DNA of 43,815 bases from Gammaproteobacteria bacterium (lineage in GTDB: Bacteria; Pseudomonadota; Gammaproteobacteria; SZUA-140). Position 1 is the first letter of the stretch. Each line of letters begins with the position of its first letter. Both the position numbers and the translations under genes were made by a program. The stretch lies in assembly GCA_003230085.1 (NCBI GenBank), contig QIGV01000070.1:1-43815 (forward strand), given 5' to 3'. The notes below the pieces were generated by a model. It made no database searches, was not told the origin of the DNA, and saw nothing but the letters and a program-made list of their open reading frames with translations. This document shows positions 2,835 through 36,389 of the stretch, piece after piece.

Positions 2835-4029
2835 TATTTCCGATAATATCGTAGATAGGTCCCAGCACGGATATCATCAGCCAGCCAAGCAATGCGCCCA
2901 ACACAACTGTCAGTGCAGGCTCTATCAACTTTTGTACCCGTTCGATTGAATCTTTTATCTCGCGATTATAAAAATAGCTGACATTGGATAATGAACTATC
3001 CAGGGCACCGGTATTCTCACCCACTCTAATCATACGTATGATTAGAGTGGGAAACAGCTCGGCTGCCTCAAAGCTGGCGCTCAATCCAATGCCATCCCCG
3101 ATCTGGAGTCGAGCCCGCTCCAGGGCACCTTCGATGACTTTATTATCGACAAGGGTTTCGCTAATCTTGATGCACTCAATGATTGGAATGCCCGTGGAAT
3201 ACATTAAGGCAAAATTATTGGCGAAGCGCGCCAATATTATTTTTCGCAGAATGGGCCCGACAAACCACAAATGCAATTTGAGATCGTCTGTCCAATAGTG
3301 AACTGATGGATTAACACGCTTCAGATATTTAATCAAAGCGACAACTACAACAGGCGTGGCAAGAATCAGATGCCAGAAGCTAGTGAAAATATCAGAGATG
3401 TAAATTAGGGCCCGGGTATGAGCCGGTAATTCATTCCCCATATTCTGGATAAATGAAACCAGCTGTGGTACCAGATAAGTCATCAGAAAAAAAATAACGC
3501 TCAGGACGACAATAGCCACAAAAGCGGGATACATCACGACCTTTTTGGTGTGTGACACTAACTCATCTTGCCATTTCAATGTTTCCGTCAGTTCAGCAAG
3601 AATTTTTGGTAGCGCGCCGCTTAGCTCCCCGGCTCTGACCAGGTGAATAAATACATGGTTAAAAACGCGGGGAAAACGCTCCATAGCCTGGGAGAGCGTT
3701 TTTCCACCCTCGATATCCGTGATCAATGCTGCGATAGTCTCGCGAAACTGCTGGTTGGTCACGCTGTCTCGCAAATCCACCAGGCCTTCCAGCATAGGAA
3801 CACCTGCCCGAATTAACTGCTCGAGATGGAAACAAAAGGTAATCAGCTCAGGCCGCCCCACGCTTCCATGCCTGAATCCGCCACGGCGCTGCCGTGCCGG
3901 ACGATGGCTGATGATGTCCAACCCCATGCACTTTAGACGCTGTTCCAGGTCTGCATCATTGTTTGCATCGATGTGCCCGACGACAGATTTACCCCTGGCA
4001 TCAATCGCCTTGTACTGAAATATGCTCAT
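2824..4029 (-). CDS. mshG: Type IV pilus inner membrane platform protein (GspF/PilC family), MshG
   Basis: 401 aa; MSIFQYKAIDARGK start, GspF repeats (LIRAGVPMLEGL, MYSTGIPIIECI), C-terminal TM; immediately follows mshE. Confidence 0.9.
   Translation of the reverse strand: MSIFQYKAIDARGKSVVGHIDANNDADLEQRLKCMGLDIISHRPARQRRGGFRHGSVGRPELITFCFHLEQLIRAGVPMLEGLVDLRDSVTNQQFRETIAALITDIEGGKTLSQAMERFPRVFNHVFIHLVRAGELSGALPKILAELTETLKWQDELVSHTKKVVMYPAFVAIVVLSVIFFLMTYLVPQLVSFIQNMGNELPAHTRALIYISDIFTSFWHLILATPVVVVALIKYLKRVNPSVHYWTDDLKLHLWFVGPILRKIILARFANNFALMYSTGIPIIECIKISETLVDNKVIEGALERARLQIGDGIGLSASFEAAELFPTLIIRMIRVGENTGALDSSLSNVSYFYNREIKDSIERVQKLIEPALTVVLGALLGWLMISVLGPIYDIIGNIGM
3020..3051. repeat. Perfect 32-bp palindrome inside mshG
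   Basis: CCCACTCTAATCATACGTATGATTAGAGTGGG equals its own reverse complement. Confidence 0.9.
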
Positions 4030-5732
4030 CAGTGAATGCGTGCCGTGAGATCAATGACTCGTGAGACTTCTTCGAGTGTCGTAGAGCCATCAAGAATACG
4101 CCGCACACTGTCCTCGGCAAGCGGACAAAATCCCTTGCTTATGGCTACCTCGGTAATCTCTCTGCGCGTTGCACGCCGCGCCACCAATTCATCAAGCTCA
4201 CTGTCTATCCACAACAGCTCCATGACAGTCATGCGCCCGCGATAACCCATATGATCACAATGCTCACAACCGCATGCGCGGTAAATCACAACAAGCTCGC
4301 TGGCATCAAGGCCAAGCAGCTTACGCTCCATTTCATTGGGGCTGGATTTCTTCTTGCAATCCGGGCAGAGTTTCCGAATCAGGCGTTGGCCTATAATACC
4401 GATAATATTTCCTGCCAGAATATCGGGGACAATGCCAAGATCCAGCAAGCGGGGTATGGCGCCAATTGCAGAGTTGGTATGTACCGTAGAAAAGACCTGA
4501 TGCCCGGTCATAGCAGCCCGTAACGTCATATCGGCGGTGTCCTCGTCACGGATCTCCCCCACCAGGATGACATCCGGGTCCTGTCTCAACATGGAACGGA
4601 TACCGCTGGCAAAATCCAGCTTGACCTGTTGATTTACAGAGGTCTGACGAATCATGGCCATAGGATATTCAACCGGATCCTCCAGGGTCATGATATTGAT
4701 CGCCTCGCTGTTGATATAATTCAACATCGAATACAGAGTGGTCGTCTTACCGCTCCCGGTGGGCCCGGTTACCAAAAGCACTCCCTCAGGTCGTGCCAGC
4801 ATGAGCTTCAGAGCAATCAAAGCCTCGTCCTGCAACCCCAGTTCATCCAGCGCCACTATCCCCTTCTGGCGATCAAGGATGCGCAACACGATATTCTCGC
4901 CGTGAGTAGTCGGTTGCGCCGAGACACGGAAATCTATAGGACGTCCAAACAGGGTTAAAGAAATATGACCATCCTGGGGGGCACGGGTTTCCGCAATATT
5001 CATTCCCGAGATCACCTTGAGACGTACGGCTATTGCCGACCAGTAATTACTATGCAGACTGCGCACCTGTCGTAGGACACCGTCGATTCGATAGCGCACA
5101 CGTAAAAACCCTGCCTCGGGTTCAAAATGGATATCCGATGCACCACGCTTGACCGCATCGGCAAGTAGAGCATCCACCAGGCGCACCATTGGCTGACTGT
5201 ATTCGTCACTGTCGCTCTGGAGAGTGTTGTAATCGACCTCACCCGTTTCTATTTCTTGCAGGATGCCATCGACGGAAAGCTCAAAACCATAAAATTGATT
5301 TATCGCATTTTCAATTTCAGATTCTCCTGCCAGTACCGGTAAAATATGAATACCCTCACCAAGCAAAGCAGCCAGCTGATCAATAGCGACGACATTAAAA
5401 GTATCTGCCATGGCAACGGTAAGTCGCCTGTTAGCACTATCCAGGGACAAGGGTAGCAAGCGGTAGCGACGTGCAACATCCCTGGGAATAAGTTTGAGCA
5501 GCTCGCTATCCAGCACCACTTTGCTCAGATCAACTGATTCTTGTCCTAAGGCCTCACCCAACACATCACGCATGGTAGCTTCTGTGGTAAAGCCCAGAGC
5601 GACAATCACCTGGCCCAGCTTGTGGCCTCGCTTTTTCTGCTCAGTTAGCGCAACCCGTAACTGGTCCTGGGTCAAAATGCCCTTTTCAACCAGGATATCG
5701 CCAATGCGGCGTGGACGTGGCACTGCGCTCAT
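4029..5732 (-). CDS. mshE: Type IV pilus assembly ATPase (GspE/PilB family), MshE
   Basis: 567 aa; N-terminal MshEN-type domain, Walker A GPTGSGKTTTLYSML, Asp box, Walker B ILVGEIRDEDTADMTLRAAMTGH, tetracysteine-like CPDCKKK...CGCEHCDHMGYRGR. Confidence 0.93.
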   Translation of the reverse strand: MSAVPRPRRIGDILVEKGILTQDQLRVALTEQKKRGHKLGQVIVALGFTTEATMRDVLGEALGQESVDLSKVVLDSELLKLIPRDVARRYRLLPLSLDSANRRLTVAMADTFNVVAIDQLAALLGEGIHILPVLAGESEIENAINQFYGFELSVDGILQEIETGEVDYNTLQSDSDEYSQPMVRLVDALLADAVKRGASDIHFEPEAGFLRVRYRIDGVLRQVRSLHSNYWSAIAVRLKVISGMNIAETRAPQDGHISLTLFGRPIDFRVSAQPTTHGENIVLRILDRQKGIVALDELGLQDEALIALKLMLARPEGVLLVTGPTGSGKTTTLYSMLNYINSEAINIMTLEDPVEYPMAMIRQTSVNQQVKLDFASGIRSMLRQDPDVILVGEIRDEDTADMTLRAAMTGHQVFSTVHTNSAIGAIPRLLDLGIVPDILAGNIIGIIGQRLIRKLCPDCKKKSSPNEMERKLLGLDASELVVIYRACGCEHCDHMGYRGRMTVMELLWIDSELDELVARRATRREITEVAISKGFCPLAEDSVRRILDGSTTLEEVSRVIDLTARIH

Positions 5733-7386
5733 GGCTGCCCCGCAGAAACACTGGCGGATAATATACGAATACGTTGCCGCGCCGCTTCAATATCAAACTT
5801 CGCAACCTGACCGGCGGCCATATCGATGGCCCACTGATAGTATTGCAGCGCCATCCGGTCTTGATGGAGATGATCCAGACTCACGGCAAGATTAAATAAA
5901 TAATTGGCATTTTGCGGTGCGGCACTGTAGGCACGGAAATAGGACCGCTGAGCCTCCTCCCAGCGCAACTGTGCGGCATAGGCATTACCCAGTGCAAAAC
6001 GGAGATAAGCCGTTTCACCATGCTTGCGCAGCATCTGCTTAATCAGCGATTCATTGGCGCCTGAATCACCTGTAGACAACAGGTTTAGCAGTCCAGTTTG
6101 TGCAGTGCCATCCTTGGGATCAAGTTCCAGCTGACGTCGATACAGGGATTGCGCCTCATCATTATATCCTTGGCGAACAGCAACGGCAGCTAGTCCAAGT
6201 AGAGCATCACGGTTGCGGGGCTGTCTTGTCAGCACCTGCTGATAATAATGCCTTGCATCCAGTATTCTGTTTCCCTGATAGGCCTGATAGGCCGTAGACA
6301 ACAACTGGTAGATAGAGGGAGAATCTGTACGCCGCTGGGGCGAGGGGGATTCCGGTTTCTTCACAGGTGTCCTGGTCACTCTGTTTACTGGCTTATTTTG
6401 CGGTTTTTTTACCGTTTTAATCTGTGGTAGTGCGGCAGCCTGTACAGGTAGCATGGCCTTGTCCGAGCTGTTTGACCGTGGCGACATATTGGTTGCGAGT
6501 ATGACCTCACTATTTGTTGCATCCATCTGGCCCTCTTGCTCCGTATCAAGGGGCTCCGACTGACCAAAAGTCCCGGGCAATTGAGCGCACGCACCCAGAA
6601 ATAATAGCCGACAATCAATATCAGGATGGTGGCTACCAAAATGCCGAGCATCAGGAACTGGCGTTTTCGGGCAACACCCTCACGCTTGCGACTTGCTGCG
6701 AGAATTTTTGCCGCATCTGCGGGCGTGTTAATATCGAGCTGGAAATCCGCAGGATGCACCCGGCCAGAATCAGCAGTGACGGGTTCCCGAAATGGCTGGC
6801 TTTCCCTGCCCGACGTTAATGCCTCCCTTGGCTCATATATAGACAACGCAGGCGTTGCTGTAACGGCCTTACCATCCCCGGATAGTGCGGCTATTTTCAG
6901 CTGCTCGTTACTCGCGGATTGATCACTTGCCTGTAATAAATTTATGGTATCGACCGACGCCGCATCCACGACTTGCAGATCAGACTCGGCTATCCGACTA
7001 TCCGCAGTGATGGTTGCTTCAATTTCTGAAAAATCCAGTTCTGCTGCTAACGGCTCCTCCACAATATCTTCAGCCAATGCCTGTACGATGGGCGAGACGC
7101 CTTCGGTGATTTCACTATCCGTATTTTCAGTTTCCGAAATGCGTAGCTCTACCTCGAATGATTCGTCGGTATTGTGATCATGCACTGGTATAACGTCATC
7201 AGAAGCAGACACCATCGTTTCTGATGGTGGATCCCCGGATGTGCCAATATCTGGAAAATCTGGCGCCTCCTGATGAGCGGCCTGTTCAGGCTTGGGGCCG
7301 GATATTGGTTCTGTAGTGGACTGCCTATCCTTGACCTTGACCTTGTTCTGCTCTGCCTGTTTCAGTGCATCCATCAACAGGCTCAT
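5729..7386 (-). pseudogene. mshN: MshN-like TPR pilus biogenesis protein, split by an apparent frameshift near 6584-6590
   Basis: ORF 6409..7386 starts MSLLMDALKQAEQNK and has a TM (FLMLGILVATILILIVGYYFWVR) then loses sense; ORF 5729..6580 supplies the TPR C-terminal half in another frame (QLPGTFGQSEPLDTEQE...SIYQLLSTAYQAYQGNR...). Confidence 0.7.
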
Positions 7387-29967: not shown

Positions 29968-31338
29968 GTGGAGAATAGTCTATGGGAAAAGTGTCTCGAC
30001 CACCTTGAATCTGAGCTAACAGCACAACAATTCAATACCTGGATCAGGCCATTACAGGCCATCGAAGACAATAGCACACTCCGCCTGCTCGCCCCCAATA
30101 GATTTGTTATGGATTGTGTCAGCGAACGCTTTTATAGCAACATATCCGCCATCACCGCCAAGTACATCGATAGCGAAGGCTTCAAGGTCAAACTGGAAGT
30201 TGGTAGCAACGACTGCACTTTTTCCAAAAAAGAAGGAAAGACGGCGCCTCCACAGCCAAGTCGCTCACTCTTTGATACGAATTTCAGTCGTAGAAATGAC
30301 CGATCAGACGTCAATCATGTTAACAATCTGCGCCCTGAATTTACCTTTGAAAATTTTGTCGAGGGTAAATCTAATCAGCTGGCTAAGGCAGCGTCACTTC
30401 AGGTTGCTGATAACCCAGGAGATGCCTATAACCCGCTGTTCATCTATGGTGGGGTTGGCCTGGGCAAAACGCACCTGATGCATGCCATAGGAAACCGTAT
30501 TCTTGAAAAAGACCCTAGTGCTCGAGTCGTTTATATCAACTCAGAACGCTTTGTCGGTGACATGGTCAAGGCGTTCCAACAAAATGCTATCAACGAATTC
30601 AAACGTTATTATCGCTCAGTAGATTCTTTACTAATTGATGATATTCAGTTTTTTGCTAAAAAAGAACGGTCGCAGGAAGAGTTTTTTCATACCTTCAACA
30701 CCTTAATTGAAGGACAGAGTCAAATCATTATGACCTGCGACCGTTACCCGAAAGAGGTGGGAGGGCTCGAGGAACGCCTGCAATCACGTTTCGGATGGGG
30801 CCTGACCGTTGCAGTCGACCCGCCAGATCTGGAAACACGTGTAGCAATCCTGATTAGCAAGGCGGAACAAACAAATATCCAATTATCCAATGATGTTGCC
30901 TTCTTTATCGCCCAGAAAATCCGTTCCAATATTCGCGAACTAGAGGGTACACTGCGGCGGGTCTGCGCAAACTCAAGATTTACCGGACGCCCAATCACCA
31001 TAGACCTTGCAAAAGATGCCCTAAAGGACCTAATTGCACTACAGGAAAAGCAGGTCACCATGGATAATATCCAGAAAATTGTTGCCGATTATTGCAAAAT
31101 TCGTATTTCGGACCTCAAATCCAAACGTCGCTCGCGGTCTGTAGCACGTCCTCGTCAGATGGCTATGGCACTGTCCAAGGAGTTGACCAACCACAGTCTT
31201 CCCGAAATCGGAGAGGCTTTTGGTGGACGAGATCACACCACTGTGATTCATGCTTGCAGAAAAATAAAGGCGCTTTTGGAAACTGATTCACGCATCAGTG
31301 AGGATTATGGAAACCTGTTAAGAATACTGACCACATAG
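29968..31338 (+). CDS. dnaA: Chromosomal replication initiator protein DnaA (GTG start)
   Basis: 456 aa; [47 protein letters not shown]-terminal [40 protein letters not shown]. Confidence 0.99.
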
Positions 31339-31549
31339 TGTGTATAACTTGTGGGTAACAATTGCCTGTGGATAACCCCTATAATTATGCACAGGTAATC
31401 AACATGGACCCCACAACAAAATGGATGTTATATACAGAGCAGAACAGATGTTAATCTATTGAAAAATATAGATTATTTCTGTTTATACACAAACGTGTGT
31501 GTCACTAATAATAACAGATATAAAAAGTAAATCTTAATATTTAAATACA
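31339..31549. other. Putative oriC: DnaA-box cluster plus AT-rich stretch in the dnaA-dnaN intergenic region
   Basis: TTWTNCACA matches at 31339-31347 (-), 31367-31375 (-), 31385-31393 (+), 31483-31491 (+), near match 31350-31358 (-); AT-rich 31440-31549. Confidence 0.8.
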
Positions 31550-32653
31550 ATGAAATTTACGATAGACAGAGAAACACTAATAAAACCACTCCAGATGATC
31601 AGCGGTGTCGTTGAACGACGTCAGACATTACCCATACTTTCGAATGTGCTTGTTTCAGTTACTGCCAATAAACTTTCACTGATTGCGACGGATCTTGAAG
31701 TACAGATGAGCACACACACTGACATCCAGGAAACTATCGAAGGTGAGGTAACACTTCCGGCCAGGAAATTTTTGGATATCTGTCGCGCTCTGCCAGAAGA
31801 GGCTAGCATCAAAATCACTGTAGACAAGAAAGAAAAAGCGACGATCCGTTCAGGGAAAAGCCGCTTTACTTTGTCAACACTACCGGCTAGTGAGTTTCCA
31901 AAGATTGAAACTCACCAGGATGTGATCACCTTTGAAATCCCTCAACGCGCACTAAAACACGCGATTGAACATACCCAGTTTGCGATGGCTCAGCAGGATG
32001 TTCGTTATTATCTTAATGGTTTGCTTATGGAAATGGCAGGACAGACCCTACATTTTGTGGCGACTGATGGCCATCGCCTAGCACTATGTGATATTGAGAT
32101 AGATTATAATAACAAAGATAATCAACAGGTTATAATACCAAGAAAAGGGGTGCTCGAACTTTCACGGTTGTTGGGTGACGACGATACTTCGGTGAAAATT
32201 GCTTTGGGGAACAATTTTATCCAGTTAAAGACGGATAAGATGGCATTTGTTTCAAAACTGATTGATGGTCGTTTTCCTGACTATCAAAATGTTGTTCCCG
32301 TCAATAGTGATAAGAAAGTGATTTGTAACCGCGAAGTTTTAAGACAGGCTCTGGCTCGAGTTTCCATCCTGTCCAATGAAAAATTTCGAGGCGTTAGACT
32401 AGAGTTTTCAACGGGATTACTTCACATTCATGCGCATAACCCAGAGCAGGAAGAAGCAGAAGAAGAAGTTCCCATAGATTATGATGGCCCTAATCTGGAA
32501 ATGGGCTTCAATGTCAATTACATTCAGGATGCGCTGGCGGCGTGTGAGACGGAACAGGTCCAATTAATGTTATCAGATCCTAATAGTTGTTGTTTGATTC
32601 ATGGTGTTGATGAAAAGCTATGTCGATATGTCATAATGCCTATGAGGTTGTAG
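31550..32653 (+). CDS. dnaN: DNA polymerase III beta sliding clamp
   Basis: 367 aa; MKFTIDRETLIKPLQMISGVVERRQTLPILSNVLV ... CRYVIMPMRL. Confidence 0.99.
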   Translation: MKFTIDRETLIKPLQMISGVVERRQTLPILSNVLVSVTANKLSLIATDLEVQMSTHTDIQETIEGEVTLPARKFLDICRALPEEASIKITVDKKEKATIRSGKSRFTLSTLPASEFPKIETHQDVITFEIPQRALKHAIEHTQFAMAQQDVRYYLNGLLMEMAGQTLHFVATDGHRLALCDIEIDYNNKDNQQVIIPRKGVLELSRLLGDDDTSVKIALGNNFIQLKTDKMAFVSKLIDGRFPDYQNVVPVNSDKKVICNREVLRQALARVSILSNEKFRGVRLEFSTGLLHIHAHNPEQEEAEEEVPIDYDGPNLEMGFNVNYIQDALAACETEQVQLMLSDPNSCCLIHGVDEKLCRYVIMPMRL

Positions 32654-32865: not shown

Positions 32866-33945
32866 ATGCGAGTTAGCCGACTTCAAATATTGAATGTACG
32901 TAATCTGCGTGAAATCGCGATAGAGCCTGCAGAACGCCTCAATTTGATTTACGGAAAGAATGCGAGCGGAAAAACCAGCTTGCTTGAATCGCTCTATGTC
33001 TTATCGAGAGGAAAGTCTTTTCGTACCAATCAAATACGCCACCTGGCCCGGAAAGGACAGACAGAATTTACTATTTTTGGGCAAGTCAGGGATCGCGACG
33101 ATCAAAAAATCGATATCGGTGTAAGTTATCAAAATAAGCGGATTAGGCTACAAGCCTATGGCAGGCCAGTCAAAAAGGCCTCACAACTAGCTAGTTATAT
33201 ACCCTTAGTTGTTATTCATCAGGAAAGCCACCGGCTTTTATTAGATGGCCCCGGTAATCGGAGAAAATTTTTAGATTGGGGCTTGTTCCACGTGGAACCT
33301 TCCTTTTATGCATTGTGGCATCGTTATGCCAGAGCGCTGAAACAAAGGAATCTTTCGCTCCAGCGAGGCGTCTGCAGACGTGACTGTGAGATATGGAATG
33401 ATGAGCTCGTCGCTGCTGCATTGGCGATCCATCAGCTCAGAATGCAGTTTCTTGGCAAGCTGAGGCCGCTCTTCAAGCGGTTTATTGATACGTTATTACC
33501 GGCCATCAGTGAAATTACGATGGAGTATGGTTCTGGGTGGCCTGATAAAGCAGATTTTGCGACGGTGTTGAAAGAGGCTTATTCTAGCGATCGTGTCTAC
33601 GGTTACACTCGTTATGGGCCGCACCGTGCTGATATGACACTGTCTATTCAGGGCATATCATTGAAGGAGAGAGTATCACGCGGCCAACAAAAATTATTGG
33701 TCTGCGCCTTGTACCTTGCTCAATCCCGTGTTTTTACAGAAAAAACAGATAAACCCTGCGTTGTCCTTATCGATGACATTGCGGCAGAGCTTGATCTGGA
33801 GCACCGCGACTTATTGCTAGGCTTGATTAATCGATTGGATATACAGGTGTTTATAACGGCTACAGATCCCTTGGAGGGTGTTCCTGGCGCGCTGATCCAG
33901 AAAAAGTTCCACGTGGAACACGGGGTGGTCAATCAGGTGCTATAA
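32866..33945 (+). CDS. recF: DNA replication and repair protein RecF
   Basis: 359 aa; LNLIYGKNASGKTSLLESLYVLSRGKSFRT, SRGQQKLLVCALYLAQSRVF. Confidence 0.97.
   Translation: MRVSRLQILNVRNLREIAIEPAERLNLIYGKNASGKTSLLESLYVLSRGKSFRTNQIRHLARKGQTEFTIFGQVRDRDDQKIDIGVSYQNKRIRLQAYGRPVKKASQLASYIPLVVIHQESHRLLLDGPGNRRKFLDWGLFHVEPSFYALWHRYARALKQRNLSLQRGVCRRDCEIWNDELVAAALAIHQLRMQFLGKLRPLFKRFIDTLLPAISEITMEYGSGWPDKADFATVLKEAYSSDRVYGYTRYGPHRADMTLSIQGISLKERVSRGQQKLLVCALYLAQSRVFTEKTDKPCVVLIDDIAAELDLEHRDLLLGLINRLDIQVFITATDPLEGVPGALIQKKFHVEHGVVNQVL
33284..33299. promoter_or_regulatory. parS-like ParB binding site (TGTTCCACGTGGAACC), inside recF
   Basis: Exact palindromic GTTCCACGTGGAAC core with T/C flanks matching bacterial chromosomal parS consensus. 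Confidence 0.88.
33905..33920. promoter_or_regulatory. parS-like ParB binding site (AGTTCCACGTGGAACA), inside 3' end of recF
   Basis: Same exact 14-bp palindromic core GTTCCACGTGGAAC, about 620 bp from the first site. Confidence 0.85.

Positions 33946-33971: not shown

Positions 33972-36389
<2,418 letters not shown>

Follow-up and report, generated by a model that had tools for sequence, protein, structure and literature searches.

Paired parS sites within recF of a gammaproteobacterium: a probable chromosomal centromere with counterparts across the class

In Pseudomonas aeruginosa, two of the parS sites recognized by the chromosomal partition protein ParB, parS1 (TGTTCCACGTGGAACC) and parS2 (TGTTCCACGTGGAACA), are located in the recF gene, and chromatin immunoprecipitation sequencing revealed strong ParB binding at both (PMC4368675, PMC5098823, PMC5521831, PMC3909081). 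The published substitutions that knock out parS1, TaTTtCAtGTaGAgCC, are spaced at every third base and, by design, spare the protein sequence. Here we describe two palindromes in the recF gene of a gammaproteobacterium (lineage SZUA-140; contig QIGV01000070.1 of assembly GCA_003230085.1), on a stretch of 43,815 nt that we call the window. Since the P. aeruginosa substitutions occupy third codon positions, the frame in that species equals the TTC CAC GTG GAA of the window. We consider it about 95% probable that the two palindromes are chromosomal parS, that is, the centromere, orthologous to P. aeruginosa parS1 and parS2, and that the DNA site is the feature under selection. This assignment rests on the consensus, the clustering near the origin, a chromosomal parAB locus, the orthology with P. 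aeruginosa and a conservation that exceeds the amino-acid need.

The two sites and their setting near the likely origin

The 14-bp palindromic core GTTCCACGTGGAAC occurs exactly at 33285-33298 and at 33906-33919, with the two copies 621 bp apart, and both lie within recF. The corresponding 16-mers, which the original prediction had picked out as parS-like, are present in the raw sequence as written:

33284..33299: parS site 1, 16-mer TGTTCCACGTGGAACC, exact 14-bp core, recF codons 140-145 (L-F-H-V-E-P)
33905..33920: parS site 2, 16-mer AGTTCCACGTGGAACA, exact 14-bp core, recF codons 347-352 (K-F-H-V-E-H)

Both sites are read in one and the same frame of a 359-aa open reading frame (32866-33945), in which TTC CAC GTG GAA encodes F-H-V-E at RecF residues 141-144 and 348-351, bearing out the prediction that the repeats lie in coding sequence and share FHVE. 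The cores of both sites match the parS consensus, and site 2 departs from the 16-bp form at the outermost base (A for T). A chance origin of the pair had been judged very unlikely, and rightly so: shuffled sequences lead to an expectation of 0.07 cores, and none of 100 shuffles yielded two. No other match to the core within two mismatches was found in the window. On the scale of the draft genome (2.9 Mb in 241 contigs), where scattered sites of equal quality were sought, the recF pair proved to be the sole sites with 0-1 mismatches, and the number of two-mismatch sites on one strand (five) compares with six for a reversed-pattern control.

The surrounding genes follow the order dnaA, a 211-bp gap, dnaN, recF and gyrB:

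29968..31338, + strand: dnaA (Bac_DnaA, 7.9e-73)
31339..31549: dnaA-dnaN intergenic region, likely oriC (six DnaA boxes with 0-1 mismatch, 30% GC)
31550..32653, + strand: dnaN (DNA_pol3_beta domains)
32866..33945, + strand: recF, host gene of both sites, 359 aa (SMC_N, 3.6e-24; TIGR00611, 1.4e-106, over the cut-off)
33972..36389, + strand: gyrB, downstream of the sites (DNA_gyraseB, 2.3e-59)

The gap is the likely oriC because it combines six DnaA boxes, each with at most one mismatch, with a GC content of 30%, and its box cluster is the only one of its kind in the window. Site 1 lies about 1.7-2.0 kb and site 2 about 2.4-2.6 kb from this region, so that the distance of 1.8-2.5 kb given in the original prediction is correct provided that the gap is indeed oriC.

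Conservation across Gammaproteobacteria and selection on the DNA

The conservation of the sites was followed in 230 recF genes. Frequencies were taken from a site-blind sample of 150 genes, to which most families contributed one or two. It was collected by a family search that ignored the sites and returned only the best-scoring recF matches, and very divergent recF genes are therefore under-represented. The remaining 80 genes came from a peptide-pattern scan whose patterns include the sites; a separate class-wide scan for DWGxFHVEP presupposes the peptide, and hence informs codon choice only and not frequency. The core GTTYCACGTGRAAC is exact at site 1 in 198 of the 230 genes and at site 2 in 193. 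Within the site-blind sample, 108 genes carry both sites in exact form, 26 exactly one and 16 none. The spacing between the sites ranges from 603 to 669 bp across recF genes, and the mismatch counts are bimodal, being either 0-1 or mostly at least 5. In ten other assemblies, two of which (G071 and G201) belong to the family of the window organism, the recF pair is the sole exact occurrence of GTTYCACGTGRAAC. Carrying parS in recF is thus the usual condition in the class. When about 150 genomes of the wider phylum were scanned for the context of site 1, none outside the class gave a recF-like match that included TGGGG; the remaining matches, which lack this context, look like unrelated parS or chance and were set aside. 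The comparison with other classes at the aligned positions covers four recF genes only.

Our codon analyses revealed a strong preference at the sites. CAC is used at codon 142 in 207 of 216 cases (85 expected from codon use in the same genes), GTG at codon 143 in 204 of 207 (63 expected) and GAA at codon 144 in 192 of 195 (107 expected), and the codons of site 2 show a like excess over the same-gene background. When the 75 conserved degenerate columns of the site-blind set are ranked, the first five places are taken by columns 144, 143, 349, 142 and 350, where one codon accounts for 94-98%, while the sixth column reaches 73%. The codon preceding Phe is nearly always xTG, and GAA or AAA is followed by C in 215 and 206 genes. 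Furthermore, the Phe codon tends to end in C when the Glu/Lys codon is GAA and in T when it is AAA, a covariation expected of a palindrome (TTC-GAA, TTT-AAA; Fisher 2.3e-6 and 4.8e-5 for the site-blind genes). The codon and covariation tests take genes as independent; as a RecF tree inferred with the site columns removed requires 16 and 17 state changes, the codon z-scores exaggerate this independence, yet the pattern recurs in many lineages. The alignment of relatives thus upholds the original prediction that the recF codons are doubly constrained, the palindrome being kept beyond amino-acid need.

A different explanation would be that the repeats are merely a conserved RecF motif, FHVE, with the palindrome as a by-product. 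Phe141 is indeed invariant in all 230 genes, including those without the site, and an F-x-V-E-x-G motif occurs near the C-terminus in some parS-less genes, such as those of E. coli (MFTVEKG) and Klebsiella (MFRVEKG). However, the codon bias at the sites, far over the same-gene background and above every other conserved column, already contradicts this explanation. Moreover, where a site is lost, the DNA and the peptide usually diverge together and His, Val and Glu are usually replaced (FYQTN, FNENE, FHHHT); residues 140, 142-145, 347 and 349-352 track the site and differ in lineages without it. We therefore regard a purely protein-level origin of the repeats as extremely improbable, and a conserved FHVE in RecF is not to be taken as a sign of protein function.

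The asymmetric form of the site, TTTCACGTGGAA, is common (154 exact sites), whereas its mirror form, TTCCACGTGAAA, is rare (5), although the two are one DNA site viewed from either strand; the imbalance probably stems from coding cost.

The partition system and alternative roles of the sites

The genome does encode a ParB homologue, as the parS identity put forward in the original prediction implies. Contig C26 carries a chromosomal rsmG-parA-parB cluster followed by the atp operon, and its ParB gives a match of 7.5e-55, the nearest solved chain being Caulobacter ParB (6t1f). The residues named in PMC7383237 as setting the choice between parS and NBS (Noc-type) sites, Arg173 (GRSR motif) and Gly201 (GHAR motif), are both present in the C26 ParB when placed by hand on the alignment, while two other contact positions are changed (Q162H and K171R). 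The sites combine the attributes of chromosomal parS (consensus match, origin clustering, cognate ParA-ParB, ParB specificity residues) with those of the recF-borne parS1/parS2, namely the orthologous position and frame and the absence of the sites where the chromosomal ParB is absent.

Two of the five two-mismatch sites are copies of GTTTCACGTGAAAC that lie 36 bp apart at 587-636 of contig C193, with an mnmE fragment on one side and mnmG on the other. We weighed them as additional parS and rejected them, C193 being probably a contaminant that comes from another bacterium in the bin: its second rsmG and parA are 48% and 55% identical to the C26 copies, and its mnmE fragment is 47% identical to that of the window. 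A separate plasmid-like cluster was observed on contig C128 (253-6461). It comprises genes for a ParA-like (3972-5204) and a ParB-like protein (3003-3953), another, short ParB homologue (253-1047) and what may be a replication protein (5406-6461), together with two small genes whose products by eye resemble a RES-Xre toxin-antitoxin pair (putative).

The loss of the sites is linked to ParB. In a family that groups with Pasteurella in the tree (Pasteurellaceae-like), a strong chromosomal-type ParB is absent in 61 genomes (best match 1.6e-28, most with none), and none of 30 recF genes retains either site. Exceptions to site absence without ParB are one 1-Mb genome (G173) with partly decayed sites and two drafts (G131 and G215) with one or both sites. 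Elsewhere, E. coli, Klebsiella and Proteus have neither site, Aeromonas retains site 2 and Acinetobacter site 1. Five ParB-positive genomes have lost both recF sites and carry two or three exact parS elsewhere; five others, G158 and G269 among them, have lost both and carry no exact parS elsewhere.

Several observations weigh against our assignment. G158 and G269 possess ParB (about 1e-58) but have no exact GTTYCACGTGRAAC genome-wide; their parS may have diverged. Conversely, G215 and G038 retain sites without a strong ParB match, both genomes being incomplete. The outermost A of site 2 is seen in only 2 of 230 recF genes. Finally, as the assembly of the window organism is 81% complete, additional parS may lie outside it and go unseen.

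The link to ParB also bears on the idea that the palindromes act as messenger RNA hairpins controlling recF-gyrB expression. A 5-bp hairpin is possible at each site, and the T-G variant, which is common, would be able to form a U-G pair at the RNA level; the C-A variant is rare. The T-G excess is, however, expected anyway, since TTT is synonymous whereas the change of GAA to AAA is not, and folding compared with shuffles is no better than chance at site 1 (z 0.13) and reaches z -2.1 at site 2. In addition, site loss tracks ParB absence, and ParB-positive genomes without the recF sites have the same DNA motif at other loci. Such a hairpin role is most unlikely. Another possibility would be that ParB uses the sites chiefly to repress the dnaA-dnaN-recF-gyrB operon and not for segregation. 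In P. aeruginosa, an excess of ParB lowers the expression of gyrB and its neighbours through parS1-4, which favours such a role; we rate it as very unlikely to be the main one.

As chromosomal parS, the two palindromes would each be bound by a dimer of the chromosomal ParB, which would load onto the DNA and spread as a clamp; ParA would then pull the complex so that newly replicated origins separate, and the complex would probably recruit SMC too. For this organism, we infer ParB binding at both sites from the P. aeruginosa orthologues, and clamp loading, spreading and the segregation function from homologues, P. aeruginosa included. Under this mechanism, the DNA site would determine both the choice among synonymous codons and several residues, within [LVM]-F-H-V-[EK]-[HPQ], at two unrelated places in RecF. 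This would be a clean example of a binding site on DNA that prevails, throughout a class, over codon usage and over part of a protein sequence. The sites would also predict the location of the centromere in many uncultured Gammaproteobacteria, including genomes with no other exact parS.

A further proposal goes beyond this: that the recF pair is the ancestral gammaproteobacterial centromere, retained at unchanged codons from an early point in the history of the class and dictating two RecF peptides throughout, with the position in the operon itself under selection. We find this proposal rather doubtful, and the relocation of sites in some lineages bears on whether the recF position itself is selected. 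If it were true, the selected position might, for example, keep the loading point of ParB and SMC at a constant distance from oriC, or tune the operon.

Comparison with the described parS systems

The window sites share with P. aeruginosa parS1 and parS2 the gene, the codon frame, the 14-bp core, the origin-proximal place and a chromosomal ParA-ParB; the identity of gene, frame and core makes them orthologues of the known pair. The 16-mer and frame of site 1 are identical to those of parS1, while site 2 has the same frame as parS2 and differs at one outer base (A here, T there). Two additional sites close to oriC, parS3 and parS4, are bound in P. aeruginosa and lie between genes, whereas no further site with 0-1 mismatches is seen in the draft genome of the window. 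Compared with the consensus bacterial parS, TGTTTCACGTGAAACA (PMC7383237), the palindrome is the same except for one Y/R pair: at position four of the 14-bp core it has C-G, like Pseudomonas, in place of T-A. Other lineages do carry T-A at these recF positions and there have Lys instead of Glu. We found no description of the class-wide recF pattern in the open literature, although the Livny 2007 survey may report part of it. A recF-borne parS was already known from Pseudomonas, and what our analysis adds is its conservation across the class.
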